The position numbers and the translations under genes are program-made. 64,000 nt of DNA from Liolophura sinensis (Eukaryota; Mollusca; Polyplacophora; Chitonida; Chitonidae): assembly GCF_032854445.1 (NCBI RefSeq), contig NC_088306.1, positions 1,738,501 through 1,802,500 of the forward strand, written 5' to 3'. The notes under the pieces are model-generated. The model saw only the letters and a list, made by a program, of their open reading frames with translations. It had not been told where the DNA came from and searched no databases. Shown here piece after piece: positions 4,398 to 58,669 of this stretch; the first letter of the stretch is position 1, and every line of letters begins with the position of its first letter.

Positions 4398-4541
4398 TTA
4401 GCTCACCCACTTCTGAATAACAGCGTCAGTGTCCAATTTCAGATTTTCTATATGCGAGTCAATCAGTTTTTCCAGCTCTCTGGCGCGGATGTTTTCCTCC
4501 GCCAAGAATCGCTCTGAGAATGATACATCACTCTGCTGTCC
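4398..4541 (-). CDS. CEP63: CEP63 last coding exon: predicted CEP152-binding helix
   Basis: This exon encodes the last 47 residues. It contains SFSERFLAEE and the helix RELEKLIDSHIENLK, and ends in QKWVS before the TAA at 4398-4400. It aligns with the C-terminal end of human CEP63 (ATRFLEEEEL..LDAHIEELKRE, from memory), the segment reported to assemble with CEP152. The acceptor reads CTGCACAG and the join to the upstream exon is in phase 0. A 3.8-kb intron, mostly 77-bp repeats, separates this functional end from the rest of the protein, so skipping or early polyadenylation would give a CEP63 lacking the CEP152 contact. Confidence 0.92.
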   Translation of the reverse strand, partial: GQQSDVSFSERFLAEENIRARELEKLIDSHIENLKLDTDAVIQKWVS

Positions 4542-7500
4542 CTGTGCAGGTAGAAAAAATAGATAATACATATAACAAAATGAATGACAAAAATATGAAA
4601 TAAAAAAAAAAGGGCCAGCATGGCTCAGGAGAAAGATACTTTTGTCAAGAATAATAAACTAAACAGGAATTACGGCCCATTACACAAAGCGACAGTAACG
4701 CTATGCTTATGCAACTACCATGTCAGTGTACATGTAACATCTGCTTGTACAGTACTGGCCAGGCCACTTTCACAGAACTTCATACATGTAACTACCATGT
4801 CAGTGTCCTAGTAATACCTGCTTGTACAGTACTCGCCGGATCACTTTCACAGAACTTCCATACATGTAACTACCATGTCAGTGTACATGTAACATCTGCT
4901 TGTACAGTACTGGCCAGGCCACTTTCACAGAACTTCATACATGTAACTACCATGTCAGTGTACATGTAATACCTGCTTGTATAGTACTGGCCACGCCACT
5001 TTCACAGAACTTCATACATGTAACTACTATGTCAGTGTACATGTAACATCTGCTTGTACAGTACTGGCCAGGCCACTTTCACAGAACTTCATACATGTAA
5101 CTACCATGTCAGTGTACATGTAACATCTGCTTGTACAGTACTGGCCAGGCCACTTTCACAGAACTTCATACATGTAACTACCATGTCAGTGTACATGTAA
5201 CATCTGCTTGTATAGAACTGGCCAGGCCACTTTCACAGAACTTCATACATGTAACTACCATGTCAGTGTACATGTAACATCTGCTTGTACAGTACTGGCC
5301 AGGCCACTTTCACAGAACTTCATACATGTAACTACCACGTAAGTGTACATGTAACATCTGCTTGTACAGTACTGGCCGGGCCACTTTCACAGAATTTCAT
5401 ACATGTAACTACTATGTCAGTGTACATGTAACATCTGCTTGTATAGTACTGGCCGGGCCACTTTCACAGAACTTCATACATGTAACTACCATGTCAGTGT
5501 ACATGTAACATCTGCTTGTATAGTACTGGCCGGGCCACTTTCACAGAACTTCATACATGTAACTACTATGTCAGTGTACATGTAACATCTGCTTGTACAG
5601 TACTGGCCGGACCACTTTCACAGAACTTCATACATGTAACTACTATGTCAGTGTACATGTAACATCTGCTTGTATAGTACTGGCCGGGCCACTTTCACAG
5701 AACTTCATACATGTAACTACCATGTCAGTGTACATGTAACATCTGCTTGTATAGTACTGGCCGGGTCACTTTCACAGAACTTCATACATGTAACTACCAT
5801 GTCAGTGTACATGTAACATCTGCTTGTATAGTACTGGCCGGGTCACTTTCACAGAACTTCATACATGTAACTACCATGTAAGTGTACATGTAACATCTGC
5901 TTGTATAGTACTGGCCGGGCCACTTTCACAGAACTTCATACATGTAACTACCATGTCAGTGTACATGTAACATCTGCTTGTACAGTACTGGCCGGGCCAC
6001 TTTCACAGAACTTCATACATGTATCTACCATGTCAGTGTACATGTAACATCTGCTTGTACAGTACTGGCCGGGCCACTCTCACAGAACTTCATACATGTA
6101 ACTACCATGTCAGTGTACATGTAACATCTGCATGTATAGTACTGGCCGGGCCACATTCACAGAACTTCATACATGTAACTACCATGTCAGTGTACATGTA
6201 ACATCTGCTTGTACAGTACTGGCCAGGCCACTTTCACAGAACTTCATACATGTAACTACCATGTCAGTGTACATGTAACATCTGCTTGTATAGTACTGGC
6301 CGGGCCACTTTCACAGAACTTCATACATCTAACTACCATGTCAGTGTACATGTAACATCTGCTTGTATAGTACTGGCCGGGCCACTTTCACAGAACTTCA
6401 TACATGTATCTACCATGTCAGTGTACATGTAATACCTGCTTGTATAGTACTGGCCGGGTCACTTTCACAGAACTTCATACATGTAACTACCATGTCAGTG
6501 TACATGTAATACCTGCTTGTACAGTACTGGCCGGGCCACTTTCACAGAACTTCATACATGTAACTACCATGTCAGTGTACATGTAACATCTGCTTGTATA
6601 GTACTGGTCGGGTCACTTTCACAGAACTCCATACATGTATCTACCATGTCAGTGTACATGTAACATCTGCTTGTATAGTACTGGCCGGGTCACTTTCACA
6701 GAATTTCATACATGTAACTACCATGTCAGTGTGCATGTAACATCTGCTTGTATAGTACTGGCCGGGCCACATTCACAGAACTTCATACATGTAACTACCA
6801 TGTCAGTGTACATGTAACATCTGCTTGTACAGTACTGGCCGGGCCACTTTCACAGAACTTCATACATGTAACTACCATGTAAGTGTACATGTAACATCTG
6901 CTTGTATAGTACTGGCCAGGCCACTTTCACAGAACTCCATACATGTATCTACCATGTCAGTGTACATGTAACATCTGCTTGTATAGTACTGGCCAGGCCA
7001 CTTTCACAGAATTTCATACATGTAACTACTATGTCAGTGTACATGTAACATCTGCTTGTACAGTACTGGCCGGGCCACTTTCACAGAACTTCATACATCT
7101 AACTACCATGTAAGTGTACATGTAACATCTGCTTGTACAGTACTGGCCGGGTCACTTTCACAGAACTTCATACATGTAACTACCATGTCAGTGTACATGT
7201 AACATCTGCTTGTACAGTACTGGCCGGGCCACTTTCACAGAACTTCATACATGTAACTACCATGTCAGTGTACATGTAACATCTGCTTGTACAGTACTCG
7301 CCGGGCCACTTTCACAGAACTTCATACATGTAACTACCATGTAAGTGTACATGTAACATCTGCTTGTATAGTACTGGCCGGGCCACTTTCACAGAACTTC
7401 ATACATGTAACTACCATGTCAGTGTACATGTAACATCTGCTTGTACAGTACTGGCCGGGCCACTTTCACAGAACTTCATACATGTAACTACCATGTCAGT

Positions 7501-10500
7501 GTACATGTAACATCTGCTTGTACAGTACTGGCCGGGCCACTTTCACAGAACTTCATACATGTAACTACCATGTAAGTGTACATGTAACATCTGCTTGTAT
7601 AGTACTGGCCGGGCCACTTTCACAGAACTTCATACATGTAACTACCATGTCAGTGTACATGTAACATCTGCTTGTATAGTACTGGCCGCGCCACTCTCAC
7701 AGAACTTCATACATGTAACTACCATGTCAGTGTACATGTAACATCTGCTTGTATAGTACTGGCCGGGCCACTTTCACAGAACTTCATACATGTAAGTCAC
7801 ATTTCTCATAACTTTTTTCTGAAAACATGTTGTCTAGGTTATAGGGCCATAAGTTGACGTCATTTATGAGAAAAGTTATGAAACATTGATTCACAAAGTT
7901 TTGTGAAAGTGCCTCCAGGTCGTACTGGGAGTTATGTGTCTGTCACACAATATGCGCTTTGTGAAACCTTTCCTCCGAACACTTAATTCTACATACTGGG
8001 TGTAAAGATTTCCTTAAGACTCGCTGTTTTTATCTCTGCTTGTTACAAACCTGTCCACAGTTATGATGTGAAACATCATAACACTCCCTTAAACAAGAGT
8101 AATAAATACAATATATCAAAACACATTTTCTTTAAATTTCACTCAAAGAAGTGCCTTTCCCGAGCCATATAAAATATTTTGGTGATGAAACTTAATTTTT
8201 CAAGTAACATATCACACTATTTTCAAAACATACCTCAAACACCTTTCTAAGATCAATAGACCTCTCAGAAGAGGACAAAATTTACAACTTAGCAATGGGC
8301 AAAATGTTAGGTTATTTACTGAAAAAATATGAAGCTATTAAAATGAGCCACACTTACATTTTCACTTGCACTCTCCTCGCTCCTGTGATATGCACTGTCC
8401 CTAGACTCCTTGTCATCCTGTATGGAGCTCACCACAGAAATGGAGAGTCGAGAATCCCACAGACCAGGAGAGTTCCGAGATGAGTCTTCTGTGAACGTAA
8501 GTGTCTTGCTTGTGTTGGACGGGCTCTGAGCTCTACCTGGAGTTTACATTATCAGAGAGACATTCAAATTTGTGGTAAAAGTAAGTTCATGTATATGCAT
8601 ATGTATCAAAAAAAAAAAAGGTAAAAGATATCAGGGTTCATTGTCTTACAATGCTTGATTGGTGTTAAGCACAGCACTCAAGAACAGGTATTTTCTGTTC
8701 TGTCTGCACCTCTTCAATTATTTTTCAAGAATCACCAGTTCTCCACTACCTGTTGGTGTATTTTCGTGCGGCAAGATAAAATTAGGATTGCTTTGGATGA
8801 AACACAAAGAAGCACAAAGAATTTGCTCTGCACTGAGCCAAATACCTCTCAGGTAATTACATTAATTACTTAATGATCTCCCAGAAACTCTCTAGTGTAC
8901 ATCATTCTACACACTTCACTCTTGGAGGCAGGTAAACATATTCTTCACATTAACTTCACCAATATGACGATAAGCTGCTTGATTGGCAATGACAAGACAT
9001 TTGCAATGTCATAAAGAAAAATACATAATTTCTGCTGAATTCTTTCCAAATCAGTGTGTTTTTCTAGTGCCAGCAAAGTGAACTTCCACAAGTTTGTTCT
9101 TTAAGACAGTCACCAGTTGAGTTTCTACCTTCATGTATGGATGCGTCTGTCTCGTTGCTCCTCTGCGAAGTCCTCAGTGAAGATGACATGCCTGGTGACC
9201 CACGCATACACGCTCCAGGGGACGCTGACCCCCCGGGGGAAGGTGGGTATTCTAGTCCCTGTACACTGGTAGACATCTCCCGTTGTATGCGATGGATCCG
9301 CTTCTCCGCAGACTTCTCAACCTCCTTGATTTTCCTATAATTGTAAAATGGAGGATAGAATGGATAAGGTGAGTTATGCACTGACACAGGTGGCACAGGT
9401 AAAGTCCTTACCACAGTGCATCAGCTCCTCATCAATCAGGCTGCAGGCTTCAGGGCAGCTCTGGTCATTTTGGCTGCAGGTTAAAGGCTGAGCCCCCTGA
9501 GTAAACTGTCGCGCTTCATCAAGTACGCCACACCTGAACCATCGAGAGCTGAAACAGCCCTGTGGCTAAGCCTCAACCTCTATCAAAGCAGGTGTGTCTG
9601 CTAACGTTCTCACCTGTGCTCCTTCAGCTTGAGCTCCTGCAGGGAGGTGTTGGTTTGCTCCTTGGTCAACCTCAGCTGGCCTTGTACACTCTCCAGGGCT
9701 CCTGTAAACTCAGACTTCAGTTGGGAGAGGTCGTCTTTCAGTCGCTTGTTCTCATCCTAACAGAAAAATCAAACAGTTTCATGTGGAAGGATATCTGTTC
9801 AAAACTGTCTTACTGTTGCTAAGCCTCTTTGGAGATCTTTGCACAAACACAGGTATGTCAAAGGCAATAAAAAGACTTGAGATGTGACCACATGTTTGTC
9901 AATGTTGTACACTTCCTTCGATCCCCACCAATACACGTAATGAGTGTCAACTTGAACAAAGGAATTTTTGTAGAGAAAATCAATGGTCAATTGTCCATAC
10001 ATAGACAGAAATCTTTCACACCTGAGAAGCAGTTGCATTGTCAATATTGCCTACAGGTACCTCATAACTCCAGTATTTCACTGCATTACAAAATCCCCTC
10101 AAAATAAGCAGTAAATCTCAACTACAGTCTACTGTGGTCTTTCTGCAGACACTGTGGTCTTTCTGCAGACACTCACAATGTGCATTTTCTCACAATGGGG
10201 GAATTTCAAACTCTTTTGTCGTTAAAGGTAAAAACAGTCCTACTGTATCAGATGATTTGTGGAAAATGTTAAGCAACGTTTCCTGACTTTAATTTACGGA
10301 TCAACTATTGCACTGCGTTGCATTTAGGAACTTACTGAGTTCAGTTTTCTCTTTGGTTTGTCTACTTTAAATAACTTTTTGCGAAACCTTTATCAGACTT
10401 CCTGTGCGTTTAGGGATAGAAGAGTTTTGAACTTGAAACTCCCTTATTGGCATCTTGCAATCTCAGCTGACATTTCCGCAGATATTAGTGACCACCATCA

Positions 10501-13500
10501 TGACTGATACATCTATACGCACAGATTAGAGAACAATTTCTCTCGCTGCTCTGTTTACCTCTAGCTGGTGTATGTTGTTGTTGTAGGTGTCAGTCATCTC
10601 AGACACACGCCTTTTTAGCCGACTTATTTCGCTCCTCGATTGATCGCTATGTGAAATCTCTTGACGTAACTCGCGATTTTCTTTCCTTAACGTCTCCAAC
10701 TGAGAATTGGCTACCTGCAAAGGTAAAATGATGATCAAACAAATGTTGTAGATTCAGACACGTTATTATTAGTGAATGTCTAGGTCTAAGGATTATACCA
10801 GACTATGGCCAAAACTTGACACAAGGAAAAACAAAAATATAATCTCCAAGGCTAGCAAATGAGAAAATGCTATTTTACTGAAACACAAGAAGGTACTTTA
10901 CATACAGGCAATGCCAAAACTGCATGAGAAAGTGTACACTACATATCTTACAAGTGGTAACTTATTCCTTATGTCTAGCATGGTTTCAGTCAGGTTTATA
11001 TGTTGGGAAAGCAGGCACACTGCATTAACAAACACATTAATATCAAAATTAATTGACTGTAATGCTTCAACCTGGTGTTTATTCAGGCATATTTTGGAGG
11101 CATTTTTCTGTGTTGACTGATAAAATTATACTTTTTGTGTAGCACTTAAAATGGCTAATCCAACCAGTGTACTTTTGCCTCCAAAATGAAAATAAAAATG
11201 TGGCCATAAATGGCACTGAAAGTTGCTCTGTGTGAAAAGGTTGAGAGATTAGGGTAACATGGCAAACATTCCGACAAATAATCTGCATGGCTGGGTAACT
11301 GCTGGATTTGAACTCAGGGTTTCAATGACAAGCCAGTAGTCATAAGTTATGTTAGCATCCACAACCATGTGGTCTTACATAAATTTCAGCGTCTTTCTTA
11401 TCCAGGACAACAGTGCCCTCTCGGAGTTGTCGTTTCATCCCAGCGTTCTCCTCAGTCAGCTTCGTCACAGTTGTTGTACGATCGTGCAGCTCACTCATCA
11501 TGGTGGACAACTCTTTCCTCATACCCTCGAATTCAGACGAGTGCGAACCCTCCAACAAGGCTAGCTTATCTTTTAACTGCCAACAGTCAACAGTTCTCTG
11601 GGTACAAAGGTGCTGTCTATAAGCACATAACTGACACAAATACAATTCCATTAGGAACATTTACAGCACACGACACAACAACAACATCTCCGCACAATAA
11701 TTATTCATATATTTGATAGGTGTTTTATGCCGTACTCAAGAATATTTAACCAATACGACAGCGGGCAGCTTTATGGAGGGGGGAAACTGGAAAGCCCGAG
11801 GGAAACCCACGACCAATTGGAGACCTTCCAATGTACTTCCACAGAATAAAGCTTAGATTTATACCTAAAGTGCTGCAATGCAGGCAAACAGTACTGACAT
11901 GACCGAGTGGTAACTATACCGCGCAGTACAGTTTTTACACAGTACTCAGCTGCTGTCACAAAGTGTTATGTGGGTGCTGTGGCTTATGACCGTACTACAG
12001 CATATGCTACCGCTAATACTAGTACTGACATGACTGAGTTGTAACTATACCATGCTGTACAGTTTTTACACAGTACCCAGCAGATGTCACAAGGTGTTAT
12101 ATGGGTACTGTGGCTTATAACCGTACTACAGCATACGGTATCGCTAATACTAGTACTGACATGAATGACTGGTAATTATACCGTGCTGTACAGTTTTTAC
12201 ACAGTACCCAGCAGATGTCACAAAGTGTTATGTGGGTACTGTGGCTTATGACCATACTACAGCATATGGTACAGCTAATACTAGTACTAACATGACCGAG
12301 TGGTAACTATATCGTGCTGTACAGTTTTTACACGGTACCCAGCAGATGTCACAAGGTGTTATGTGGGTACTGTGGCTTATAACCGTACTACAGCATACGG
12401 TATCGCTAATACTAGTACTGACATGACTGAGTGGTAACTATACTGTGCTGTACAGTTTTTACACGGTACTGAGCAGATGTCACAAGGTGTTATGTGGGTA
12501 CTGTGGCTTATGACCGTACTACAGCATATGGTACTGCTAATACTAGTACTGACATGACTGAGTGGTAATTATACCGTGCTGTACAGTTTTTACACAGTAC
12601 CCAGCAGATGTCACAAGGTGTTATGTGGGTACTGTATCTTATGACCGTACTATAGCATACGGTACCGCTAATACTAGTACTGACATGACTGAGTTGTAAC
12701 TATACCATGCTGTACAGTTTTTACACAGTACTGAGCAGCTGTCACAAGGTGTTATATGGGTACTGTGGCTTATGACCATACTACAGCATATGGCACTGCT
12801 AATACTAGTACTGACATGACCGAGTGGTAACTATACCGTGCTGTACAGTTTTTACACAGTACCCAGCAGATGTCACAAGGTGTTATGTGGGTACTGTATC
12901 TTATGACCGTACTATAGCATACGGTACCGCTAACACTAGTACTGACATGACTGAGTGGTAATTATACTGTGCTGTACAGTTTTTACACAGTACTGAGCAG
13001 CTGTCACAAAGTGTTATGTGGGTACTGTATCTTATGACCGTACTATAGCATACGCTACCGCTAATACTAGTACTGACATGACTGAGTGGTAACTATACCG
13101 TGCTGTACAGTTTTTACACGGCACTCAGCAGCTGTCACAAAGTGTTATGTGGGTGCTGTGGCTTATAACCGTACTATAGCATACGGTACCGCTAATACTA
13201 GTACTAACAGTAGTTGCCACATACCACAGAGCAGATTACAGTATTCTGTATGATCATCTATGACAACATGTTGAGGCCTTTCTGGGCACAGATGCACTTT
13301 TCAGAGCTGTACAGTACTATCAGGTCTTGACAAAATATGCACCATTTGCACCATTTCCCCGTGCAATTCTGAGAGAAAATGAAATAAGCTTACCCCAATA
13401 TAATACACAATTACTAAAAATTAAACAAGTCTGCATGAAACAGAGGGATTTTTTTCTCGTTTTTTGTTTAGTTCATTTCATCAAAAATTTTTTTAAAAAG

Positions 13501-20400: not shown

Positions 20401-22061
20401 TTGAGGTACCTCTCTCTGTTTCTGCTCCAGCATCTTTCGCTGCTTGTTGACTTCTCTGTCCCTGACCTCCAGCTGTGAGGTCACAGCCTTCAGCTCGCGC
20501 TCCCACTCCAGTTTCCGTGTGTTCACCATAATGTCAATCTGCCGCATCAACTCCTGAAGTTCCACCTCACAAGCTGTCGTCAATGTACCTTTAGGGAGCC
20601 TGCCAATGAAATCACACCATGGTGTTCTACAGGGGAGTTGTCTGCTGCCTCATCTATTTTAATTTTTATTTGCTTATTTTATTTATTGGATATTTTGTCT
20701 GATTTGTGATAAATGAAGTATTCAAAAGTGAGATATGCAAAGTCTTCAACATTTGCAGAATGGTTGTCTACCACTTTCTGATGGTATGTTATAAGTTAGA
20801 CTTCAAATCAAAGGGAGACAAACCTTGTGGTTTAAGAAAAAATGATTTTTGTTATCTAGTTTCTGTTGTTCATTTTAGCACAGCAAATGTAACAAGTTCA
20901 AATTTTAAACCACAGTGCCACAACCTACAAAACATGAATACCAGATTGAGGAACAAGATAGCATGGTCTTCCATCAAACTGTGAAATCTCTAAATGATAT
21001 CAACTAGCACAGTACTGTGACATACGTGCACACGTACCAGTCCTTTACCGGAGCAATGAACAATCATACACACCTGTTAATAAATGCCTTAAACTGTTCC
21101 TCCATAACAGTATATTTTCATACCTCTAAGGTAAATTTGCTCCTTGGGACAGTGTCACACAGTCTGTGGCAAGCCTAGGTACTGTGGTATAAATATTCCA
21201 CTATATCCAGTTTGCATGACACCTTTCCGAGGTGTTAACAACATGTGTGATTGTCACAAAACATGAACGAATGGCATCATATGTCACATGTCTGAATGAC
21301 TGTCACTTGTGTACCTGCTTTAATAGCCCCAACAAAACAATGTTGTCACTCAGTCCGACAATCTGACATTATACCAGGAACCAGCTCTGACACCACACCT
21401 GTACATCTAACAATGTTTTCAAACCTTTGTGAACTGTATAACACATGCACTGCTTTCAGAGCTACATGTACCAGTTTGTAATAAACTTTGCAGACAATCA
21501 CCAGGTTGTTCAGCAATATTTACCTTGTCTGTCTTTTGGCAAGAAATATGCAATAAACATGTAAGCTCTTGGATAGTTGGAGAGACTTCTTGATCTTTGA
21601 CTTAGCTAAACAGTCAACCTAGACAGTGTGCAAGTTAAGGCATGTCACAAATAAAGCTGCACGCCTCATGGGGTGTGGTTCTTTTTCTAACACTGCGGGA
21701 GCTTTAAGCACAGTACATGTTTAGATAATATGTATTATACATATATCACTGCAAGGCATGATTTTCAGTGTATTGTTTAATTGATGCACAACATTGTAAT
21801 GTCTCTTTCTGCACTCAGTACTGCTGGCAAATTCACATACATGTAGAATAAATTGCACGAACAACCTACCATGTAAGTAAACTTTACAACTGAGGGCATC
21901 TCAGTGATACCTTGCCTTCAGGCTGTAAATAAATTGTTGTAATTAGAGAACATTGCTAGCCAATAATCTGCTTTGTTCTGGTCCTACCTGTCTGAAGACT
22001 GGAGCTCTTCCCAGAGACAAGACACCCTCTCGATCGAGTGGCTTCTTTTGGGGGACTGCAT
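4398..22061 (-). CDS. CEP63: CEP63/DEUP1 centrosomal coiled-coil protein, 17 coding exons, 765 aa
   Basis: Family role: CEP63 helps recruit CEP152, and so PLK4, to the parental centriole; its vertebrate paralogue DEUP1 does this at deuterosomes. The coding exons in transcript order are 22061-21988, 20599-20410, 19930-19835, 19483-19340, 18866-18762, 18228-18094, 17019-16900, 16078-15933, 15259-15173, 14220-14109, 13629-13567, 11576-11379, 10714-10559, 9756-9614, 9334-9129, 8536-8358 and 4541-4398. All introns are GT-AG, every phase joins, and the sum is 2298 nt. Residues 35-50 read CEVELQELMRQIDIMV, the family's most recognisable N-terminal motif. Most of the rest is coiled coil, with family-like stretches such as DWEIQQ, LEAQKKA, LQRAKDTI and LEGMRKE-type segments. 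The C-terminal helix matches the CEP152-binding end. Human CEP63 is about 703 aa. The ATG at 22061 was chosen because it opens the exon that splices in phase onto the conserved domain. The 18866 acceptor could instead be 18863. An invertebrate gene is expected to be the pre-duplication ancestor of CEP63 and DEUP1. Confidence 0.95.
4712..7797. repeat. 77-bp minisatellite, about 40 copies, in CEP63 intron 16
   Basis: The unit runs through CTACCATGTCAGTGTACATG, ATCTGCTTGTA, GTACTGGCCGGGCCACTTTC and AGAACTTCATACATG. Neighbouring copies differ at a few diagnostic sites: TACAG or TATAG; CCAGG, CCGGG or CCGGGTC; CAGT or AAGT. In the distal part the AAGT variant recurs exactly every 231 bp (at about 6874, 7105, 7336 and 7567), which shows recent trimer-wise amplification. 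The array lies about 170 bp from the splice acceptor of the last CEP63 exon. Confidence 0.96.
10222..10455. mobile_element. Dispersed MITE-like repeat, copy 1, in CEP63 intron 13
   Basis: It begins TAAAAACAGTCCTACTGTA and ends TTGAACTTGAAACTCCC..ATTGG. The same two ends, at similar spacing, occur at 24926-25240. The interior is diverged and there is no coding capacity. Confidence 0.6.
11698..11822 (-). mobile_element. SINE family A 3' half in CEP63 intron 11
   Basis: The reverse complement carries the GGGTTTCCCTCGGGCTTTCC, AATATTCTTGAGTACGGC and ATAAAACACCTATCAAATA segments typical of the family. It lies just upstream of the 131-bp array. Confidence 0.75.
11890..13207. repeat. 131-bp tandem array, about 10 copies, in CEP63 intron 11
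   Basis: Units start at AGTACTGACATGA (11890, 12021, 12152 and so on, spacing 131). Each contains GTGCTGTACAGTTTTTACAC, a GTCACAA.GTGTTAT block and a TACTAGTA palindrome at the unit junction. The array lies between coding exons at 11379-11576 and 13567-13629, about 310 bp from the acceptor. 131 is not a multiple of three, so no long frame is open. Confidence 0.95.
14388..14645 (+). mobile_element. SINE family A copy, divergent, in CEP63 intron 9
   Basis: It shows the head segment TTACCCAGAAACCTCTC, the AGCTCAAGTCC B-box-like segment, ATGGTCATGGGTTTCCC, TCCCACCATAAAGCCAGC and a (TCAA)n/(TAAA)n tail. A separate minus-oriented scrap lies at about 14334-14383. Confidence 0.75.
16240..16396 (-). 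mobile_element. SINE family A 3' half in CEP63 intron 7
   Basis: The ATTTATTTATTTATTTATTT tail is followed by the reverse complement of the family end (GATTGGTGTTTTATGCC) and the central domain as far as CCTTCCCACGTA. Confidence 0.85.
17437..17483. repeat. (TA)n microsatellite
   Basis: About 23 uninterrupted TA dinucleotides in CEP63 intron 6. It accounts for the YI-repeat peptides in both translations. Confidence 0.98.
17648..17921 (+). mobile_element. SINE family A, full-length reference copy
   Basis: This is the best copy in the window. The head is GGGGCCTCCGTGGCTCAGTT with A-box TGGCTCAGTTGG, and the B-box-like segment is GAGTTCAAGTCC. The central domain has TGGTCGTGGGTTTCCCCCGG and CACCATAATGCTGGCCGCC. 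The end is CTTGAGTACGGCGTAAAACA followed by about 22 A. Internal Pol III-type boxes plus an A tail indicate a tRNA-derived SINE mobilised by a LINE. I cannot assign it to a named molluscan SINE family. Confidence 0.92.
18911..19154 (-). mobile_element. SINE family A, near full length, in CEP63 intron 4
   Basis: On the minus strand it reads from GGGCCTCCTTGGCTGAGGGG through the B-box-like segment to the GTATAAAACACCGATCA end. It lies 45 bp upstream of the exon ending at 18866. Confidence 0.88.
20600..21987. other. CEP63 intron 1, no recognisable element
   Basis: This 1.4-kb AT-rich intron separates the start-codon exon from the conserved N-terminal exon. I saw no exon, repeat array or recognisable transposon in it. 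Confidence 0.6.
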
Positions 22062-31120: not shown

Positions 31121-31184
31121 TTTGGAAACTCACTTCCTTGTCTCTGAAGAGAGGAACTGAAAACAAAAACATCATTAGTGATTT

Positions 31185-33054: not shown

Positions 33055-33188
33055 GTGAGCAACGTGCGCATGGTCGTAGGTTTCCCCAGGGCCATGCCGG
33101 TTTCCTCCCACCATAATGCTGGCCGCTATCGTATAAGTGAAATATTCTTGAGTACGGCGTAAAACACCAATCAAATAAATAAATAAAT
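33055..33188 (+). mobile_element. SINE family A 3' half
   Basis: It contains ATGGTCGTAGGTTTCCCC, TCCCACCATAATGCTGGCCG, GTATAAGTGAAATATTCTTG and GGCGTAAAACACCAATCAAA, with (AAAT)n. Confidence 0.88.
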
Positions 33189-40900: not shown

Positions 40901-43900
40901 GAAAGCAGGTAATCCCATGAGGTAGCATACAGGTAAACAAGTCAAGGGAAAACAGGTAAACCAGTCAGGGAGAAAACAGGTAACCTCGTGAGGGAGCAAA
41001 CAGGTAAACCAATCAGGGAAAAACAGGTAAACGAGTGATGAGGAAAGCAGATAAGCCAATGCATGTATATATATGTACATCTGTACATTGTGTTGTTGTT
41101 GTAGGACTATGAGCACATGCTCCATGACCTCAGTGACCTCCAGAGGGCAGACATGTACAGACGACAGAAAGTTGTGGCAAATATCCCGGTAAGTATCACA
41201 CTCTATCAAAGAGGTTTTACTACTTGACCAATATCTGTAATAAGTGACCTATTTTGCCCATGGTGTCCCATTAATCGTGGAAAGGTGTGTTGAGGTTTGT
41301 TTGGAGGTAATATGTCATGTTTGCCTCTAAATGTGTATCTTTTTGGGGGAACATCTTTAGGGCAAATACAATAACCATGTGTTCACATTTTCCAAGTTTT
41401 CAGTTTATCGTATTTAAAAAGAATGGGTTTTTATAAGATCTCTTGAGATCAGGGTAGGTATGATTTATAATACTGAAGTTAAATGGAAATACTGTAAATA
41501 CTGTACTTATAATTCACTGGAATTTATCTTTGCTGATTTACTCCTAAAACATGTTCGCGTGAATTAATTTTCATGTATTTAATCAAGGGAATACTGAAAA
41601 AAAAATCTTAAAAGTGTTTAATTATCCCAGTTGTAACGTGGCTGAAATTACTCAAGCACGTCAAACAGGTTGTATAAAGGTTGCCATTGGTCCTCCTCTC
41701 TTGCCTGCAGTGTCACTAAACACCTTATTTCTTAGAATGTTGTCTGTCGCACACCTTAACTCAGTCATGAGAGTGATTCTCACACAGTATACTGAGTTTT
41801 CATTTGATGTAAAAAATGTTAGAAATTTACAAATCTTATCTCCAGTCATTTGTGACAGCCAGTTGTTATAAAGTCTACATGCATGCCCCCGTTAAAGCAT
41901 TGGTACAGTTTTGTCTAATTCTGTTTATGTTCCCTTTTCCCTCCCACCACCTGCTAACAGAAGCAGGTGTTTGAGCCCCCTCACCGCCGCCTGGAGCACC
42001 GCCGGGACAGACAGCGCACCATGGAGCAGGCATTTGAGGATATGTACATGAAGGCTACAGGTGAGCTAGGGAGTTAACTCCATAAGGTCACTGTGCTGTA
42101 CTGAAAGATCGATTTGTGGTTTGCTTGTGGTTGCTTAAGTATTTAACATTCTCGGGGTTTGACTCAGTACGAAACTCTATGGTACACAACAAACAAAAAG
42201 ACGAAGGTCCTAAGGTAAATTCTGCCTCCAAAAATGAAGAAAATGGCATATTTCAGGCATCTCTTTCTGTGGTTCTCTTTCACTTTTTCCACAGAGGTCA
42301 TGCATTTTAGACCAATCAACACTAAGCTTAGGACATTGCAATTAACCTAGATACTACAGAGCTGTGTTTGTATCACGTGCCTTATTGTGGTGACTAAAAC
42401 TTTGCTGTACATTTGGGTGTGAAATATCAAAAATGTTAAAACAAAGTGAGCGATAGATCTGTAAACTGTGCTAAGTAACACTTTGATCACTGAATTAAAT
42501 TCCTATAGTTCGCCTTTATATATATTATTATTTCTTATCATAAAAACAAATCTAACAAGTAAATAAATCCAAATTCTTTTATTTGTAGAAATAAACAGCA
42601 TGAACTGATATTATTCTGGGAGGTAAACACACCGGCCAGTGTTTTGCTGGATGTTTGAAAGGTCATCTCTATTCATTGTGTATTTGTACACGGCCCACAA
42701 ATAACAGCAGGGCAGAATTACTGATGATTGATGTTATTCAAATACCACAGCAAGCCTTACACTTACACAAAGCTGTATTATTTTATACCCTCTCTGGCAT
42801 GTCGTGTATGGTAACAATTTTAGATTTTATGAAGAGCTTGTAAATTGATCATTTCAACTGCTATATTGTTTCTTGTCCAAAATTAAGATTAAAGCTGAGA
42901 TTCCTTACATGCGGTAGCGGTATACGGTACGCGGTATGCGGTACGCGGCAAAAAATCGAAATAGTTAAAATAAGTTGCAATGATTCCATAGGTATGGTCG
43001 CGGATCCGTTTTTTAATGCGGAAACGTATACGGCAAAATCAATCGCACCAATTAGCGATCGGTGCGGTATGCGTTTTCAAAACCGGACAGGGTATCCCAA
43101 GAAATGACGTCACTGGTGGGGTGTTTCCCCGACACGTGGTCGGAACTTGTTTGAATTGTTCTCTGGTTAGACGAAAGTACTGTTGGAATTTTTCTCCATC
43201 CAGCTGCAATTCCAAGACCAAGTTTTCGGAAAGCTCCCTGCTGAGCTCTTTGCCGCAAAATACTGTGGACCCACCATCGGTGTTTTCTCTTTTTACGCTT
43301 CTTTAGTTGCAACAACTTATATGACATTGCTATTATGGCAAGGTCTGAATCTTGCTCTAAAGCCACACGTCGTGAAATGGAGGAATGCGACATGTTTGCT
43401 CTGATAAAAACGCACCATGAATGAAAGAAAACGCATAGGTTACCGCATAAATGGAATCAGAGAAAGCGCACACCGCATGACGTATCCGCGTACCGCGTGC
43501 CGTATACCGCAAACCGCATACCGCGTATATGGAATCTCAGCTTAATTATGCTGAACATAGTTTGCTGCTTTATGTACAGATAGGTTGGATGACACAACTT
43601 TATGTGGTTACATATACATGTTCCTGACACAACTGCATGTGGATGCATATACATGTTCCTGATACGACTTCATGTGGTTGCATTTACATATTCCAGACGC
43701 AACTTCATGTGGTTGTATGTACATGTTCCTGAAACAACTGCATATGGATACATATACATGTTCCTGACACGACTTCATGATGATGCATATACATGTTTCT
43801 GATGCAACTTCATGTGGTTGTATGTACATGTTCCTGAAACAACTGCATGTGGATACATATACATGTTCCTGACACGACTTCATGACGATGCATATACATG

Positions 43901-46900
43901 TTTCTGATGCAACTTCATGTGGTTGTATATACATGTTCCTGAAACAACTGCATGTGGATACATATACATGTTCCTGACACGACTTCATGATGATGCATAT
44001 ACATGTTTCTGATGCAACTTCATGTGGTTGTATGTACATGTTCCTGACACAGGTTTATGTGGTTGCATGTACATGTTCCTAGCATATCTCCATTGTGTGT
44101 GTTTTACAGATTACACAGGTGATTTGAGCCTGGCCCTGGACCCTTACCCTCAGATGGACACGCCATCTGCCACAGAAGCCTCAGAGGTGTCAGCCACATC
44201 AGATGCTGACCAAGCCCATGATCTGTCAACCACCCAGACAGACAGGCCTCAGCCCCTCCCACCACCCCCTCGCTCAGAGACCCTCAAAGATGTCACCAAT
44301 GTTGCTAAAGATTCCAGTGGACAGAGCCCTAAGAAATCAGGTTAGAATTACTGTATTTGATCTAAAATTGTGACGTTTAGAAGGTAGGATGATATTCTAT
44401 TGAAAAAATTAAGTTTCAGCACTAAGATATTTTGTGACCTTATTTACTTCTAAAAATGCACTTTTTGGAGGCCAATTTTTAGAGCAAATGCAAAGGTGTC
44501 GAAAAACCAGCCATCACAGCTTTGAGCGTAATATTTTCACATTTCGAAGGCATTAATTTATTCCCTCACTTATTATTTTCAGAATAAAAGAAGGCTGTTT
44601 TATGAGGTTTAAACACTAAACAACACAATGTTTTTAGCAAATTTTAGGGACAGAAATGATACGATTGCCTCTTTTGTGATGCCAAATGAATGATAAGCAA
44701 AGTAGAAAGCTGATACTCATGCTCTTGGACCTTCAAATTATATTCTTCCATCTGTAATTTGAGTGAGTGAGTGAGTGAGTGATTGGGGTTTAATGTCATA
44801 CTTAATCTTTAATTTGAGAAGATGTGTTTGTTAATTTATTTTTTTGATTTCATTGGAGTTTTGTGCCATACTCAAAGATATTTCACTTACACGACTGCAA
44901 TCAGCATTAGAATGAGAGGAAACTGGGCAAAGCCCGGGGGGAAACCCACGGCGATCTACATGTTTTGCTAGCAGACCTTCTTCTTGAGGAAGGACGCATG
45001 CGCTGGACATGAACTCACAAAACTGGCGTTGGTTAGAAGCTCCTGGGTCATTTTGCTGAGCTAGCATGCTGACCACCAGGCCAGTTAGGCCCCCAATAAT
45101 AAAACTAATATAGGTAACAACGGTACATTTCAGTTAAACATAGAATTTAATTTTCATAAACTTTCTCTTATTGCACCAGTATGTTGCTCTTACAATTTTC
45201 ATTTTTGTTATCAGAGACAGTCCTGAAGAAACTTCTGAATCAAATCAAGAACCAGCGAGATGATTGGATAACCAGGTCCAGTCAGGAGGCCCCGGAACCT
45301 GAAGACGTCCTGTCCATGTCACCTCAATTGTTCAAGAAGTACCAAAGAGAGAAGGAGTGTCCAGTAGCTACCCTACCTAAGACAAATCAAGGTAAGATAA
45401 ATGAGTGTTTTCTCAACCTCTTACTGGTGGTATTTGTCAAGTGCCATTCTTTTGTTGTCAGTTTTGTGTGTTGTTGTTGATGCTCTGATCTCTAACACTG
45501 TAATGTCAATAGTTAGGCAAGTAGCCCTACAATGTCTGATCTCTAACACTGTAATGTTAATAGTTAGGCAAGTAGCCCTACAATGTCTGATCTCTAACAC
45601 TGTAATGTCAATAGTTAGGCAAGTAGCCCTACAATGTCTGATCTCTAACACTGTAATGTCAATAGTTAGGCAAGTAGCCCTACAATGTCTGATCTCTAAC
45701 ACTGTAATGTTAATAGTTAGGCAAGTAGTCCTACAATGTCTGATCTCTAACACTGTAATGTCAATAGTTAGGCAAGTAGCCCTACAATGTCTGATCTCTA
45801 ACACTGTAATGTTAATAGTTAGGCAAGTAGCCCTACAACGTCTGATCTCTAACACTATAATGTTAATAGTTAGGCAAGTAGCCCTACAGTGTCTGATCTC
45901 TAACACTGTAATGTCAATAGTTAGGCAAGTAGCCCAACAATGTCTGATCTCTAACTCTGTAATGTTAATAGTTAGGCAAGTAGCCCTACAATGTCTGATC
46001 TCTAACACTGTAATGTTAATAATTAGGCAAGTAGCCCTACAATGTCTGATCTCTAACACTGTAATGTTAATAGGCAAATAGCCCTACAATGTCTGATTTC
46101 TAACACCATAATGTTAATAGTTAGGCAAGTAGCCCTACAATGTCTGATCTCTAACACTGTGATGTTAATAGTTAGGCAAATAGCCCTACAATGTCTGATT
46201 TCTAACACCGTAATGTTAATAGGTAGGCAAGTAGCCCTACAATGTCTGATCTCTAACACTGTAATGTTAATAGTTAGGCAAGTAGCCCTACAATGTCTGA
46301 TCTCTAACACTATAATGTTAATAGGCAAGTAGCCATACAATGCCTGATCTCTAACACTGTAATGTTAATAGTTAGGTAAGTAGTCCTACAATGTCTGATC
46401 TCTAACACTATAATGTTAATAGTTAGGCAAATAGCCCTACAGTGTCTGATCTCTAACACTGTAATGTTAATAGGCAAGTAGCCCTACAATGTCTGATCTC
46501 TAACACTGTAATGTTAATAGGCAAGTGGCCCTACAATGTCTGATCTCTAACACTGTAATGTTAATAGGCAAGTAGCCCTACAATGTCTGATCTCTAACAC
46601 TATAATGTTAATAGTTAGGCAAGTAGCCATACAATGTCTGATCTGTAACACTATAATGTTAATAGTTAGGCAAGTAGCCCTACAATGTCTGATCTCTAAC
46701 ACTATAATGTTAATAGTTAGGTAAGTAGCCCTACAATGTCTGATCTCTAACACTATAATGTTAATAGTTAGGCAAGTAGCCCTACAATGTATGATCTCTA
46801 ACACTATAATGTTAATAGTTAGGAAAGTAGCCCTACAATGTCTGATCTCTAACACTATAATGTTAATAGGCAAGTAGCCATACAATGTCTGATCTCTAAC

Positions 46901-49900
46901 ACTATAAAGTTAATAGTTAGGCAAGTAGCCCAATGATGTCTGATCATAAAATACTATCATGTTAAAAGATAGACAAGTAGCCCTACCATGCCGTAAACAT
47001 TTCTTTGTAAATTTAAATTAGCTCTACATGCACTTGTATTTGAAGTTTAATTAACATGTTGGTGTTTGTACAGACAACCACGTCCCAGATACTTTGGCGT
47101 CTCCTCCCCATGCGTTAACTGACATGCCATCAGAAAAGGCTTTTCCATTGGGAAGAGAGCAAGGTCGTCATCAAAAGTTGTCTCCCCCTGTCAAGGACCA
47201 ACCAAGTCAACATGTGACAAGCGATAGGGAGCCTGTTGGAAAGGTGCCTGCTGGGGTTGCAGAGGTCAGTTTACATGTTGCTTCATTTAGTGCTGCTAGA
47301 CTGTTCATTGGAAATTCTGTATTTGTGAAGCACTGATTTGCCAGTCTTCATGGTTTGCACTTCCTGGTTATTTTTACGTACGCATCGGTGTTAAACACCA
47401 ATGCAGTCAGGTAGGTAAATAATTCAATAGAACCTCAGAGGATTTCAAAGTCATCATTGTGGTTTACAGGTCATGGATTTCCCCCAGGCTCTGCTCGGTT
47501 TCCTGTCACCATAAAACTGGCTGCCATTGTATTCAGTGTACGGCGTAAAAACAAATAAATAAATGTGCTTTACAAAGCTTGTCTTTACTAAAATTCAGCC
47601 TATGAAGGCATTAAATCCTTAATATTCATTTAAATTTAAATTAAGTTAAAATTAATAACACAGGGAAAGGTATGTGTTGAATACAGTTTGGAGTGTTCGT
47701 CTAATAATTTTATGTATTTTGGAAGGTGATTTTTGGTGGTTTGTTGATCATGTTGCCATCTTGTCAGCAGGACTCTCATGAACGTTGTGTGGAGGAAGCC
47801 AGAAGGGAGCTACAGCAAATACAGTAAGTACTAACGTGTCAGATCCCACTCAAGCCATGGTTTGGGTGGAACTGACACGGTACAGGACCTAAAATTTCAC
47901 CCGTCACCGAGGTGCAGCCTGATTCTGAGTTCCTGTAATCTTAGAAATGTGTTTTGAGGCTTGTTTGAAAGGTAAGGTGATATCCTAATGGAAAAAGATG
48001 AGTTTCACCAACAAATGTAATCTTTTATGACATTTAATGGCCTCTAAAAAAAATCACTTTGTTGGGCAAAAGTTTAGGTTGTTTGTCGTATTTACAGTGT
48101 AGAAGATATTTACACTGTTCTAGTGAAAGGTGAAACTGATAATAGAAAAAATATTTGCACTGTTCTAGTGAAAGGTGAAACTGATTATAGAAAAAAAATA
48201 TATATGCATGTATGTTTTCAGGCCACACATGGCACACCACTGCAGGTTCCCTTGAACTTCCTGATAAAAGAGCTCTCCATTCATTCACATGCCATGAGAT
48301 GAAGATTTGAAGCTTCAGAAGGGTTATTGTTTTCAGAAATGTCTTAAGAAAAGTATTTATCACCTGAAAATGTAACTGGAGTATTGTATTTAAATCTCTT
48401 TTGACTCATCCTGAATGCCCCAGCTTGGTGTGAGGGCTCATAATCAGTTAAACAGTTTTGATTGTATCCTGGTTTTTCTTTACAGAGAGAAGAAAGCCGC
48501 TTTGGAAGAAAAACTGAGACAGTATGCTGTACAGCAACAACAACAGCAGCACAAGCAGCAGATGGAAGAGTCTGTCGTCACGAGGTCTAAAAATGTGCTA
48601 GGTAACCTTGACAACCAGCTACAAGATCAACATTTGTATGTAGCAAGAAATCTCAAGGATATTGATAATGCTGATCAAGTGATATTTGCTACTAGTGCCC
48701 TTCCACCCGGAGCGGAATCCACACAAGAGGGTCAGAAAACTTTAGACGATGATGTTTATCCAGAAAGTTTGGCAATAGTCAGAGGACAGACTGGAATTAA
48801 AACAGCAGACCAACAAGATAGCGAGCAATTGCGAGGAGAGCCTGCTGGTTTGGACCTGAATGTCTTGTCCGAGGTGTTGGCGGGTAACACTGAATCAGAC
48901 CATGTGCGTCGAATCAGGGAATACCAGCAGCGTTTGCTGGAGCGACACAAGAGCTGGAAGATGTTGGCTGAGACGAGGTCTGATATTGAGCGACGGCGCA
49001 TTGAGCTTCGTCAGCGTTATCCTCAGCTTAACATTCCGCAGATGGAACCTCTGCCAACTTCAGGCTCATTAAGTCTCCTTAATGCACCAAGACCTTTTCC
49101 TCCAACGTCATCGGTACTCCCGTCACAAGACCCACTCGTGACTGCAGAACCCTCTCTGGCTCAGCCTGTTTCAGCCATCCACAACATAAATCCAAACCCC
49201 AAAGAACAACCAAATACATTTTCTCTTCAACAGTCTAATGGTGTCTCAGCAACCATTTTTCCTCCTGCATTGCCATCTGGTGTTGTTGCCATGCCAACCA
49301 CTAGTTCAACAATTCTTCAGACTAATGGTTTATCAGATAAAGGGGCCCTTGCTTCCAAAGTGGAACAACCCAAAATGGACAATGTTCGTAAGCAACTTCT
49401 TTTTGATTCAGAGACACCTAAAACTAGCCCAGAGAAACAGAAACCCAAAAGCCCTTTGACAGGGAGAAGAGACATGAATCGAGTTGTCCATTCGGAGAAA
49501 AACGAGCTACCACCAAACGCTGCAGTCAGTGATTTTGCTACAGCAGTTCCGCTCGGTCAGTCAAGAGTGAGGAAGAAAATCCAAGTCTCTCCAGCAAACA
49601 TTTCTCCAACAGAAGACCAGTCTTTGGACCATTCAGGAATTGATCCTATCCTGGCTCTCACAGAAGCAGCCAAGGAACGGAAACTTTATTTTGAAAAACG
49701 ACAGAGGCAACTGACGCAGCAACTTGAAGAGATTCAGAACCAAAAGGCTGCATACCTGAGCCAGCATGAAGACAGTCAAAGGAGACTGCAAGAACACCGC
49801 CAACGTGTTCTGCGAGAACTCATTCAAGGCTTTCCTTCTGAAACCTTGGACGATGCTATAACTCGTGAACAGCCCTTAGAGGTTCTGAGATCATCAAATT

Positions 49901-52900
49901 CTGTGGCCAAGCCAGAAACTGGAACCAGGCATCCAGATTCTTTGCAGAATGTTTCTTTTAAATCATTGAGTTCGGTTGGTCGCAAAACCTGGGCAGACCT
50001 TCTTCACGACGCAACAGAAAGTGCTGACTCAGCATCAATAGATCCAGTGTCACTTCTGAATGGCAGCCAGGCATCTGCGCCCGACTCCCATCAACCACAC
50101 GAGCTGAGCACTATTCTGGAGGTGGACACGCCCCCACAGAGCAAGAGTCTGTCGACAAGCCGGAGAAGAAGTGAGGGACAGGATGACGCTGATGGTCTTG
50201 TCATTGGACCACCTTCCCATGGCAACAGCATCTCCGGTGCTGAAATAACAGATGACAGATTTTCATCTCAGGTGAGCCATTTTCTCCTTAGTCCCACATG
50301 TATTTATGATGTTTTAACATGGCATTTCCAATCTACATGTTTAGACTGTGATTTATTTTTGAACCAGTGCTTATACGCTCTGACTGAGTGGAGTTGTCCA
50401 GCCCTGTACATAGGGAACAAATACTATTACTCAGCAGTGCCCTTTACCTGCTTGAATAATAATGTCAGCTTACATCAGTGCCCTCTACCTGCTTGAATAA
50501 CATTGTCAGCTTACATCTGTGCCCCCTACCTGCTCGAATAACAATGTCAGCTTACATCTGTGCCCTCTACCTGCTCGAATAACAATGTCAGCTTACATCA
50601 GTGCCCTCTACCTGCTTGAATAACATTGTCAGCTTACATCTGTGCCCTCTACCTGCTCGAATAACAATGTCAGCTTACATCTGTGCCCTCTACCTGCTCG
50701 AATAACGTTGTCAGCTTACATCTGTGCCCTCTACCTGCTCGAATAACATTGTCAGCTTACATCTGTGCCCTCTACCTGCTTGAATAACATTGTCAGCTTA
50801 CATCTGTGCCCCCTACCTGCTCGAATAACAATGTCAGCTTACATCTGTGCCCTCTACCTGCTCGAATAACAATGTCAGCTTACATCAGTGCCCTCTACCT
50901 GCTTGAATAACATTGTCAGCTTACATCTGTGCCCTCTACCTGCTCGAATAACAATGTCAGCTTACATCTGTGCCCTCTACCTGCTCGAATAACGTTGTCA
51001 GCTTACATCTGTGCCCTCTACCTGCTCGAATAACAATGTCAGCTTACATCAGTGCCCTCTACCTGCTTGAATAACAATGTCAGCTTACATCAGTGCCCTC
51101 TACCTGCTTGAATAACATTGTCAGCTTACATCAGTGCCCTCTATCTGCTTGAATAACAATGTCAGCTTACATCAGTGCCCTCTACCTGCTCGAATAACAA
51201 TGTCAGCTTACATCAGTGCCCTCTACCTGCTCGAATAACAATGTCAGCTTACATCAGTGCCCTCTATCTGCTTGAATAACAATGTCAGCTTACATCAGTG
51301 CCCTCTACCTGCTCGAATAACAATGTCAGCTTACATCAGTGCCCTCTACCTGCTCGAATAACAATGTCAGCTTACATCAGTGCCCTCTACCTGCTCGAAT
51401 AACAATGTCAGCTTACATCAATGCCCTCTAATATAGTTAATCATATGCATGTACATAGAGGCCACAGTTGTTTTATGTGTTGCAAGATTAGCCTCCCCTA
51501 CATAACATTAAATGTAACGTTTAATCCAAAGCAAACAAATGAATGTAGTTTTAGGATATGTATTAATTTATAAAAGAAGTTATTGTGTGTGTTTGCAGAG
51601 GATTTCAATGCTGCCACCACCCGGTTATGAAGATGTAACCAGAATAAGAGATGGTTTGGATGAGGATGGTTTGTACCGTTTGTTGGGTTTTTTTCCTGAG
51701 TTACAAGAGAAGATACAAAATACAAAACTACACACACTGTAAACATGTATTGGTTGTTCTGAGAGTTTATAGAACAATATGCACCCTTGTTATGCATGAG
51801 CATGTTAAAACATATCTTAGTTTTTGAGAGCTGCTGTCATGTAAGTGAAATATTACAGCGCAAAATTCAAATCAAGGTAATAAAACAAACATTTTTTTGG
51901 AGAAATCATGTCAACAAAATAACACATTTTCTTTGAGGCTGAAAATTGAAAAAGTGATCACATCTAAAGTTTAATCAGGCTTTGTTCTCATTCAGCAAAT
52001 TTAGAAGCTGTATGTCAAATGGTTCTGTGGGCCTCCATGCAAGCACAGCACAGCACAATGGCTGAGGAGCCTCTTACAAATATGGTCGTTGTGAGTTTAT
52101 GTCCAGCTCATGCTGGCTTCCTCACTGGACATGCACGGCGAAGTCTTCCAGCAACCTGCGGATTGTCGTGTGTTTACGCTGGGCTCGATTTCCTCCCAAT
52201 ATAATGATGGCCAGGGTCATATATGTATAAGTGAAATATTCTTGAGTACAGTGTAAAATACCAGTCAAAGAAATTCATAAATCAAATAGTTTTTGTAGAA
52301 ATCATATCCACAAGCATGACAAGGAACACACACACAGACAGATGGGTGCAAATCAAGATCCATTTCCAAAGGTGAATAAAAATACACTAGGAGAATGTCA
52401 TTTTAAGGGTCAGTGATATTCCTAGAATCTAGTATTAATTCATTACATTTAAACCTGAACAACTGATCATCTCATTTATTGTCTTTGTAGATTTTGAAGA
52501 AGGTTACGAGCCATTTGCTACTGGACTGGTGTTGAGAAAGTCTGATGACATCACGCTGAAAACAGTCAGCGAAGCCTCAGCGGCAGTGGCTAGAGCCCAC
52601 CAACTCTTAGCCCAAACGGCAATCCCTCTGCTCACAGGTTCCGATACAGACGCACATCTCTACGACAACCAGTCGTCTGGAAGCGATTTAGTCAGTGCGA
52701 TTTCAGGATCACAGAGCCACGCATCTGCCGAGTTTTGCGGCGCAGAGTTGCTGTTTTCCAAACGTGACCAGAAGGAGAGCTCAAACAACAGCTCTGTGTG
52801 GAGATCGCCTGATATATATGAGGGGTCTTCCCCGCATAGCTCAGAGGTAACCCAGTATTCTGCTCCTTCTGAGTCTGCTCGGTCAAACGGCTCTGAGGCA

Positions 52901-55900
52901 ATCAAGTCAACGGAAAGTCTCACTCAGTACATGGCCTACAGCAATGGTGAGAAATGGGGTAATGGCACCATGTGGATGACCAAGGATCGGCAGCTCTCTC
53001 CCTCAGGGGTATCAGAGGTAACTCAGTACTCTGGGGCGTCGGGGGTATCCCAGGACTCCACTGGGAAAAGATTGCACTCCTCGGAAGTTTTGGGAGATTC
53101 AGGAAAAGTCAGGGAGATGGGATCAGCAGAGATGAAGGGTAGAATTGTGGACAAGGTCGCGACCTTCAACTCACCTTCAGAACTAGAGCTGACCCAGTTT
53201 TCTCACAATTCAGAAAAAACGTCCAGTCAGGATAAGTCTTCCACTCTGTTTATAACGAGCAAGTCTCAGGTTGATGAAGAAACCATTCCTGGTTACCACG
53301 GCAACGATCCGTTGACAAGCCACACAGAAATTGCAGAGTTGCGTCCGAAATCTTCAACCAGTGTGTCTGCCACAGAAATAACGCAATATTCGTGCTCCCC
53401 AATATTAGAATTAAATACAGAACTTGAAGTTAAAGGCGGAAAATCGACTGAGACAAAAGAGTTGACACATGCAACATCACCTAGCATGCCTGGTATTGAG
53501 GAAGGCACAAACATTCCAGTCACAACCGAGTCCCAAATCCTGGAAAACGCCTCGTCACAGATGGAATTGACAAAAAATGTTCTCAACAAGCAGAGTTTGC
53601 ACTCTGCCAAGTCTTTGACTGAAAGACGTGCAGTGACATCAAGCGAGAATGTCTGGTCATCTGATCTTACTGAGTGTTCGGCCACTTCAGTTGGAGAAAG
53701 TTGTCAGAGAAACAACAAAACCTATCCGCAGAAAAACTCATCTCTGAGGGAAGTGTCAGACATAGGAGACATGACTTCCTACAGTTCAAGTCCTGCTGAT
53801 CACAGCACACCTGCTCAATCAGAACTAGGGAGAGATGTGAAACAAATGTCTAACTCAGAATCACAAAAAGAATCACTCCCTTTCCTGGATTTGTCACAGA
53901 AATCCAAGGAAAACCAGAGAGATATTTTCCGAGCCGTCAAAGTTTTCATAGAACCCCCAAACAGCCAGTCGTCTCCTCAAGGAACGGAGCGGTCGGGAAG
54001 GGATCGCACGCAGGGATCGTCAGTATCACAGGGCGTTGGCATAGACGTGCAATCAGGCCCTTCAGAGAGCAGTAGTTACATGACTCTGCCTGCCATGAGC
54101 AGAGCAAATCCCCTGGCCATGACAGACTTTTCTGCCTTCAGCAGCCATGTTAATGGAGACTTCCACTCCAAGACAGACTCTTTCGAAACTTTTGGTAGCT
54201 CCGGGTACCAGCCTCTTTCTGAAGATTCCTGGAAAACGCCGGGTATGACCTCACATCACGAGGACTCCCTGGCCCTGGACCTTCACAAGTGGAAGGAGTA
54301 TTTGCAGCTGGGTAGCCCTGATAAGGTGAGAATGAAAGAAAAGAATCCAATTTTCTGATATGTCGGTCAACTGGAAATTCCCTGACAGATTGAAATACAG
54401 GTATGGTCTTGATGAAACTGGTTACATGTGTTTGCATAAGTGCGATGTGTTTGTACAGCATTGTTCACATTGTTCAAATTGTGCTGACAGTGTACACGTC
54501 ATACGTGGTTGTTTGACAGTGTACACATCGTGTGTGGTTATGTGACAGTGTACACATCATATGTGGTTATGTGACAGTGTACACATTGTATGCGGTTATG
54601 TGACAGTGTACACATCGTATGCAGTTATGTGACAGTGTAACATCGTATGTGGTTATGTGACAGTGTACACATTGTATGTGGTTATGTGATAGTGTACACA
54701 TTGTATGTGGTTATGTGACAGTGTAACATCGTATGTGGTTATGTGATAGTGTACACATTGTATGTGGTTATGTGACAGTGTACACATTGTATGTGGTTAT
54801 GTGACAGTGTACACATTGTATGTGGTTATGTGACAGTGTACACATTGTATGTGGTTATTTGATAGTGTACACATTGTATGTGGTTATGTGACAGTGTAAC
54901 ATCGTATGTGGTTATGTGACAGTGTACACATTGTATGTGGTTATGTGACAGTGTACACATCGTATGTGTTTATGTGACAGTGTAACATCGTATGTGGTTA
55001 TGTGACAGTGTACACATTGTATGTGGTTATGTGATAGTGTACACATTGTATGTGGTTATGTGATAGTGTACACATTGTATGTGGGTATGTGACAGTGCAC
55101 ACATAGAATGTGTACATGTATGTTAGGATTATTGTATTTCACCCAAAGGTTGGCTTGTAAAAATGTACTTTCAAGTTGCACATATTGTGCTTTAAATATA
55201 TTATAAACAATATTATTGATGCCAGCGCTAAAGTTTTTCTGATGATGAATTAATGCAGCTTCACAAGAATTTCTTAAGAGGCCATTTACATGTAAGGTGG
55301 ATAAATCAATCAGAATTGAGCAAAATGTTTCCCTTGAAAAGACCAACTAAACTTAAGGTGATACAGTATGTATAAATATAACTATCATGAGTGTCATCTT
55401 TCACATCAGTGAGATGAGTGTCATTTTTGATGAAGGTTGTTTTCAGATAGTTCATTTCAAGCAGAGGGTTAACAAAAAATGTGAAAAAGGGTGTCCAAAC
55501 AGCTTTTCCTGAAGCTTTTTTATTTCAACAGAATGTTCAGATTTTCGAACAGTGCAGAAAATACATTAAGCAGAATTAAACGTCAACCAAGGAAAGAAAC
55601 ATTTCTTAAAGAACAAGGCGAACTATGCCGAACCTGTAACTGTTCAATCTTTTTGAAAAGTGATATTGCATTTTTGTGTCAACTGAAGTGGTTTTAAAGT
55701 TGCCATGCCAATTTAACCACAGCTTCATTTTAATAACACGTTTTAACTCCAATGGTCAATAAATGTTGCTTTTGTTGTTGTTAGTCGCAGATCTCCCTCT
55801 CAGAGCCTGGCATAATGGAGGAGGCTGAATTGACATTGGTGTCATCTGCATCAATAACCAGTCCATCCCGACTGCACGACAGCCAATCGGAGAGCTTGGT

Positions 55901-58669: not shown

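Follow-up and report, generated by a model that had tools for sequence, protein, structure and literature searches.

Human DEUP1, SMCO4 and CEP295 presumably follow one another in that order at 11q21, with SMCO4 on the minus and CEP295 on the plus strand, and we take human CEP63 and COMMD2 to share the 3q arm, about 15 Mb apart. CEP63 and DEUP1 are described, in the portion of PMC4628622 considered here, as derived from one locus through gene duplication, and an excerpt of PMC8470418 assigns DEUP1 to centriole amplification in multiciliated cells. In sheep, a 526-kb interval of OAR21 (400,938-926,701) is credited in a section of PMC8472390 with C11orf54, CEP295, MED17, SMCO4, TAF1D and VSTM5, a list in which DEUP1 does not appear. 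A buffalo gene set excerpted from PMC7863760 comprises DEUP1, CEP295, TAF1D, C11orf54, MED17 and SLC36A4, does not name SMCO4, and is unordered, so that it may mix regions. The two lists share members, and both are consistent with the human order that we assume; neither, as excerpted, has all three names, nor COMMD2. The literature searched yielded no account of DEUP1, SMCO4 and CEP295 together or of CEP295-CEP63 synteny, which is not to say that the linkage has never been published. The part of PMC8169753 at hand gives no gene order.

The chiton assembly examined here has 28,010 genes according to an excerpt of PMC11068029, where the animal is called Liolophura japonica; it was renamed L. sinensis in the authors' correction (PMC12441733). 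The window, that is, the whole stretch of 64,000 nucleotides that was analysed, is C12:1738501-1802500. Contig C12 is 31 Mb long (31,077,156 bases) and makes up 5.1% of the assembly (609,464,459 bases, 632 contigs).

Genes of the window

Four genes were modelled, beginning with a CEP63/DEUP1 gene on the minus strand (4398-21105; 17 exons, 761 aa), which is followed by COMMD2 on the plus strand (23799-27378; 5 exons, 199 aa), SMCO4 on the minus strand (30947-31120; one coding exon, 57 aa) and CEP295 on the plus strand (34930-58669; 21 exons). The initial annotation had named these four genes on these strands, and it is borne out by the exon models, by Pfam and PDB matches and by alignments to the presumed human sequences. 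Two large centriole genes do enclose two small ones, with CEP63 and CEP295 outside and COMMD2 and SMCO4 inside, and the end points that had been given coincide with the outermost bases of two stop codons, that of CEP63 at 4398 and that of CEP295 at 58669. CEP63 and COMMD2 stand head-to-head, with about 2.7 kb (21106-23798) between their start codons, and so do SMCO4 and CEP295, with about 3.8 kb (31121-34929). Between CEP63 and COMMD2 lies a 48-nt inverted repeat, whose arms (22630-22677 and 22857-22904) are 92% complementary and 179 nt apart; this element (22630-22904) may be a small mobile element. Searches of the window for tRNAs and Rfam families gave no match.

The reading frame of CEP63 is open throughout its 17 exons and 761 codons. 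The product matches the Pfam family CEP63 (PF17045, the N-terminal coiled-coil domain) with an E value of 1.5e-54 over positions 2-263 of the 263-position profile, and CC_CEP152-bind (PF25771) at residues 724-758 (E 6.8e-8). The C-terminus of the model also matches human CEP63 in PDB entry 6csu (E 6.1e-4) and was aligned to 6csv as well; this CEP152-binding coiled coil is encoded by the last exon (4398-4541, minus strand). At the other end of the gene, the first exon (21074-21105) and the acceptor of exon 2 are tentative, having been picked by hand, and at the junctions of exons 10-11 and 15-16 the site pair used scored below the best pair.

COMMD2 was assembled from exons at 23799-23865, 24172-24249, 25295-25377, 25817-25990 and 27181-27378 on the plus strand. 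When exon 2 is omitted from the model, the best solved structure is human COMMD2 (8f2r_B, E 4.2e-61), the next being COMMD5 (E 4.6e-6), and the Pfam COMM_domain is recovered with an E value of 1.2e-11, while COMM_HN stays under the cut-off. One scan of viral contigs found no COMMD2 homologue. SMCO4 is recognised by Pfam DUF4519 (E 3.6e-24), its 57 residues comparing with about 59 for the family, and in an alignment of 55 columns it shares 45% identity with the presumed human SMCO4 sequence.

The CEP63 family has one match in the assembly, with no separate DEUP1 seen in this family search, the count being a lower bound; SMCO4 likewise has one match in the whole assembly. As a control, COMM-domain genes were sought in the genome, and six places were found, all on contigs C6 and C8. 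This number is also a lower bound, since the COMM_domain search missed the COMMD2 gene of the window, in which the domain is split by an intron; family searches of this kind therefore give lower bounds, and this includes the single CEP63 match. The two family searches of the assembly revealed no second copy of CEP63 or SMCO4, and both are likely to be single copy in this genome. A partial genome duplication has been reported in this chiton, according to a portion of PMC12005716.

The C-terminus of CEP295 carries the Pfam ALMS_motif (E 4.5e-9). No Pfam family was recognised in a 186-aa segment from the N-terminus; across 334 columns this end of the protein shares 39% identity with the presumed human CEP295 sequence. 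The frame is open across exons 1-14 and exons 16-21; between exons 15 and 16 (about 51717-52490) no canonical join was found.

Intron repeats and outer neighbours

Most of CEP295 intron 7 (40265-41104) is occupied by a 24-bp minisatellite (40259-41030, plus strand; approximately 32 copies), the unit of which derives from the end of CEP295 exon 7 together with the 5′ splice site. Sixteen copies carry the exact form aaacag/GTAACC. Long minisatellite arrays are also present in the CEP63 and CEP295 introns and just 3′ of CEP295, at 4709-7795, 11890-13209, 43590-44080, 45484-46990, 50435-51430, 54485-55112 and 60165-63263. Among the arrays listed here, only that at 40259 begins at a modelled exon boundary.

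The left neighbour of CEP63 is CLNS1A (pICln), the exons of which lie on the plus strand at about -10.6 to -1.4 kb of the window. One of them was identified by the Pfam family Voldacs (E 2.3e-6) and by solved pICln (E 9.6e-5), and the others by eye; a long repeat array is located between CLNS1A exons. To the right of CEP295, at about 65.4-73.6 kb, are the minus-strand exons of BRCC3 (BRCC36), which show the C-terminal domain (E 2e-13) and an N-terminal exon matching solved BRCC36 (E 1.2e-12); an HSH stretch in one BRCC3 exon is presumably JAMM-like. CLNS1A, CEP63, COMMD2, SMCO4, CEP295 and BRCC3 are on one contig with alternating strands, and no further gene was recognised between them; the outer genes were found by eye and with nine chosen frames, so that an overlooked gene between them is possible. 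Past BRCC3 is a DUF229 gene, and the strands from CLNS1A to DUF229 read + - + - + - +, an alternation expected by chance in 1.6% of cases for seven genes, which we consider unremarkable.

Other features of the surroundings include a single open frame of 1103 aa (piece L007:2472-5780) with LDLa repeats, leucine-rich repeats and a rhodopsin-type 7TM domain, a layout that we take to be relaxin-receptor-like. The right flank contains dense mobile-element frames, reverse-transcriptase-like by eye, at approximately 89-94 kb and 126-153 kb, and frames at 129-141 kb appear by eye to be Polinton-like.

Origin of the neighbourhood

In a random order of 28,010 genes, three given genes would fall within four consecutive places with p = 2.3e-8, and for 20,000 triples chance clustering amounts to 4.6e-4; this null is crude and the margin is wide. 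The comparison with a random-linkage expectation that the initial annotation had proposed thus places the clustering of the trio far beyond chance, provided that the assumed human order holds. The annotation had also taken DEUP1, SMCO4 and CEP295 to be consecutive in human. The excerpted mammalian lists bring these genes together in pairs, SMCO4 with CEP295 in sheep and DEUP1 with CEP295 in the unordered buffalo set, and the full human trio is presumed. SMCO4 and CEP295 are close together in a second distant lineage, within the 526-kb interval of the sheep excerpt. Conserved microsynteny is well supported by these data.

Two other accounts of the clustering are much less probable. The position of CEP63 beside SMCO4 and CEP295 might be a coincidence or an independent convergence, with only the SMCO4-CEP295 pair being ancient; such a history would suit the orientation of CEP63, which differs from the one we assume for human DEUP1, as well as the intervening COMMD2. 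Strong rearrangement is reported for chitons in part of PMC12005716, and the sheep interval excerpted from PMC8472390 has SMCO4 and CEP295 without DEUP1. However, three genes would cluster by chance with a probability of only about 2e-8, and DEUP1 and CEP295 occur together in the one buffalo gene set (excerpt of PMC7863760), so that we hold coincidence to be quite improbable. Alternatively, the linkage of CEP63 and CEP295 may have been selected through a common pathway (CEP152 recruitment and centriole maturation) combined with shared regulation. Of the four, CEP63 and CEP295 are centriole genes, and each of these large genes is head-to-head with a small one, as such selection might lead one to expect, yet COMMD2 (of the Commander complex) and SMCO4 are not known to be centriole genes. 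The RFX X-box was considered as a shared regulator and rejected: seven matches with at most two mismatches were counted where 5.7 are expected, which is chance level. The only perfect RFX-like site, at 53292, is within a CEP295 exon, and none of the seven matches falls in the CEP63-COMMD2 or SMCO4-CEP295 divergent stretches. The suggestion that the linkage had been retained for functional reasons finds no support here, the RFX-like sites being at chance level and the intervening genes presumably belonging to other processes. A functional link between the neighbours is unsupported, selected linkage is the least credible of the explanations considered, and the common centriole role of the genes at the ends of the block is probably a coincidence.

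We consider it probable that the block is an inherited conserved neighbourhood and not a functional, operon-like unit, and that the CEP63-like gene was duplicated in vertebrates, where one copy left. The CEP63/DEUP1 gene, SMCO4 and CEP295 would already have adjoined one another in the ancestor that molluscs and vertebrates share. After duplication of the CEP63-like gene in vertebrates, the DEUP1 copy would have remained beside SMCO4 and CEP295 and that of CEP63 would have come to lie on another chromosome, for which a genome duplication followed by reciprocal loss is the simplest route. Slow small-scale rearrangement is probably the main reason why the genes stayed together; putative promoter regions may be shared within the divergent pairs CEP63/COMMD2 and SMCO4/CEP295, and breaks within a pair would then be slightly costly. 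Counted against this inherited neighbourhood are the presence of COMMD2 inside the chiton block and the derivation of the evidence from one invertebrate genome. In addition, chitons are described in a portion of PMC12005716 as extremely rearranged: linkage groups have mostly persisted and gene order has not. The premise of a slow-evolving genome is for this reason not safe.

The initial annotation had gone further and read the window as the arrangement that preceded duplication, with human 3q and 11q as its two halves. One part of this stands: as predicted, a single CEP63-family match is found beside SMCO4 and CEP295, and it fits a gene from before the duplication. The orientation does not agree, CEP63 being inverted relative to human DEUP1 as we assume the latter to lie. 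Five presumed neighbours of human CEP63 or CEP295 were sought in the chiton genome by family searches, namely Angiomotin, ANAPC13, MRE11, C11orf54 and MED17. In the Angiomotin family, AMOTL2 is presumably near human CEP63 and AMOTL1 near human CEP295, and we take ANAPC13 to be the head-to-head neighbour of human CEP63. Angiomotin gave one match, on C12 at a distance of 18 Mb from the block, which would favour the two halves; ANAPC13 and MRE11 are on C1 and C11orf54 is on C10, which would not. The search for MED17 gave no match, and this does not show its absence. One of the four detected neighbours is hence on C12, a result with a chance probability of approximately 0.19 at 5.1% each and thus compatible with chance.

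A whole-genome-duplication split of the block into 3q and 11q is plausible and only in part supported. It competes with a history in which the neighbourhood is equally ancestral, but a single-gene or small segmental duplication moved one copy, CEP63 or DEUP1, away from SMCO4 and CEP295. The position of ANAPC13 on C1 in the chiton would agree with such a move, given the head-to-head arrangement that we assume in human, and so would the approximately 15 Mb that we take to separate COMMD2 from human CEP63, which means that the 3q side retains little of the block. Against this, Angiomotin paralogues are presumably near both human loci and the single chiton match is on C12, and in human COMMD2 presumably shares its chromosome arm with CEP63. 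We judge a single-gene move to be unlikely, though far less so than coincidence or selection. A more ambitious reading, which we put forward tentatively as somewhat doubtful, takes CLNS1A-CEP63-COMMD2-SMCO4-CEP295-BRCC3 as a near-intact piece of an ancestral bilaterian segment, the vertebrate descendants of which would have been distributed by genome duplication and gene loss over their presumed human positions on 11q, 3q and Xq; DEUP1, the deuterosome gene, would then go back to a segmental duplication that can be dated.

Should the block be ancestral, vertebrate DEUP1 would be the copy that stayed and CEP63 the copy that left its old neighbours, and the origin of the deuterosome pathway could be dated by synteny and not from sequence alone. 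Otherwise this would be one more conserved neighbourhood, a known phenomenon.

Comparison with known systems

The 24-bp minisatellite resembles the amphioxus "mirage" minisatellites, in which, according to an excerpt of PMC3087553, an exon-intron boundary is likewise duplicated in tandem with repeated splice signals. Here the gene is CEP295 of a mollusc, and the unit of 24 bp is present in about 32 copies. Conserved linkage of centriole-amplification genes is also a feature of the MCIDAS-CCNO-CDC20B multiciliation locus, as presented in part of PMC8470418. That locus is described in vertebrates, and a functional link within the chiton block is unsupported.

With human 3q22-25, where we place CEP63, ANAPC13 and AMOTL2 and, farther off, COMMD2, the chiton locus shares the location of CEP63 and COMMD2 on one arm. 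These two genes are adjacent in the chiton, the presumed human distance being about 15 Mb, and chiton ANAPC13 is on C1. In comparison with the mammalian 11q21-type block of DEUP1, SMCO4, CEP295, TAF1D, C11orf54 and MED17, the chiton has COMMD2 in between and CEP63 turned round, the next recognised gene is BRCC3 rather than TAF1D, and C11orf54 is on another contig. What the two have in common is that the CEP63/DEUP1 gene, SMCO4 and CEP295 are close together, with SMCO4 on the minus and CEP295 on the plus strand, the human order and strands being those that we assume.
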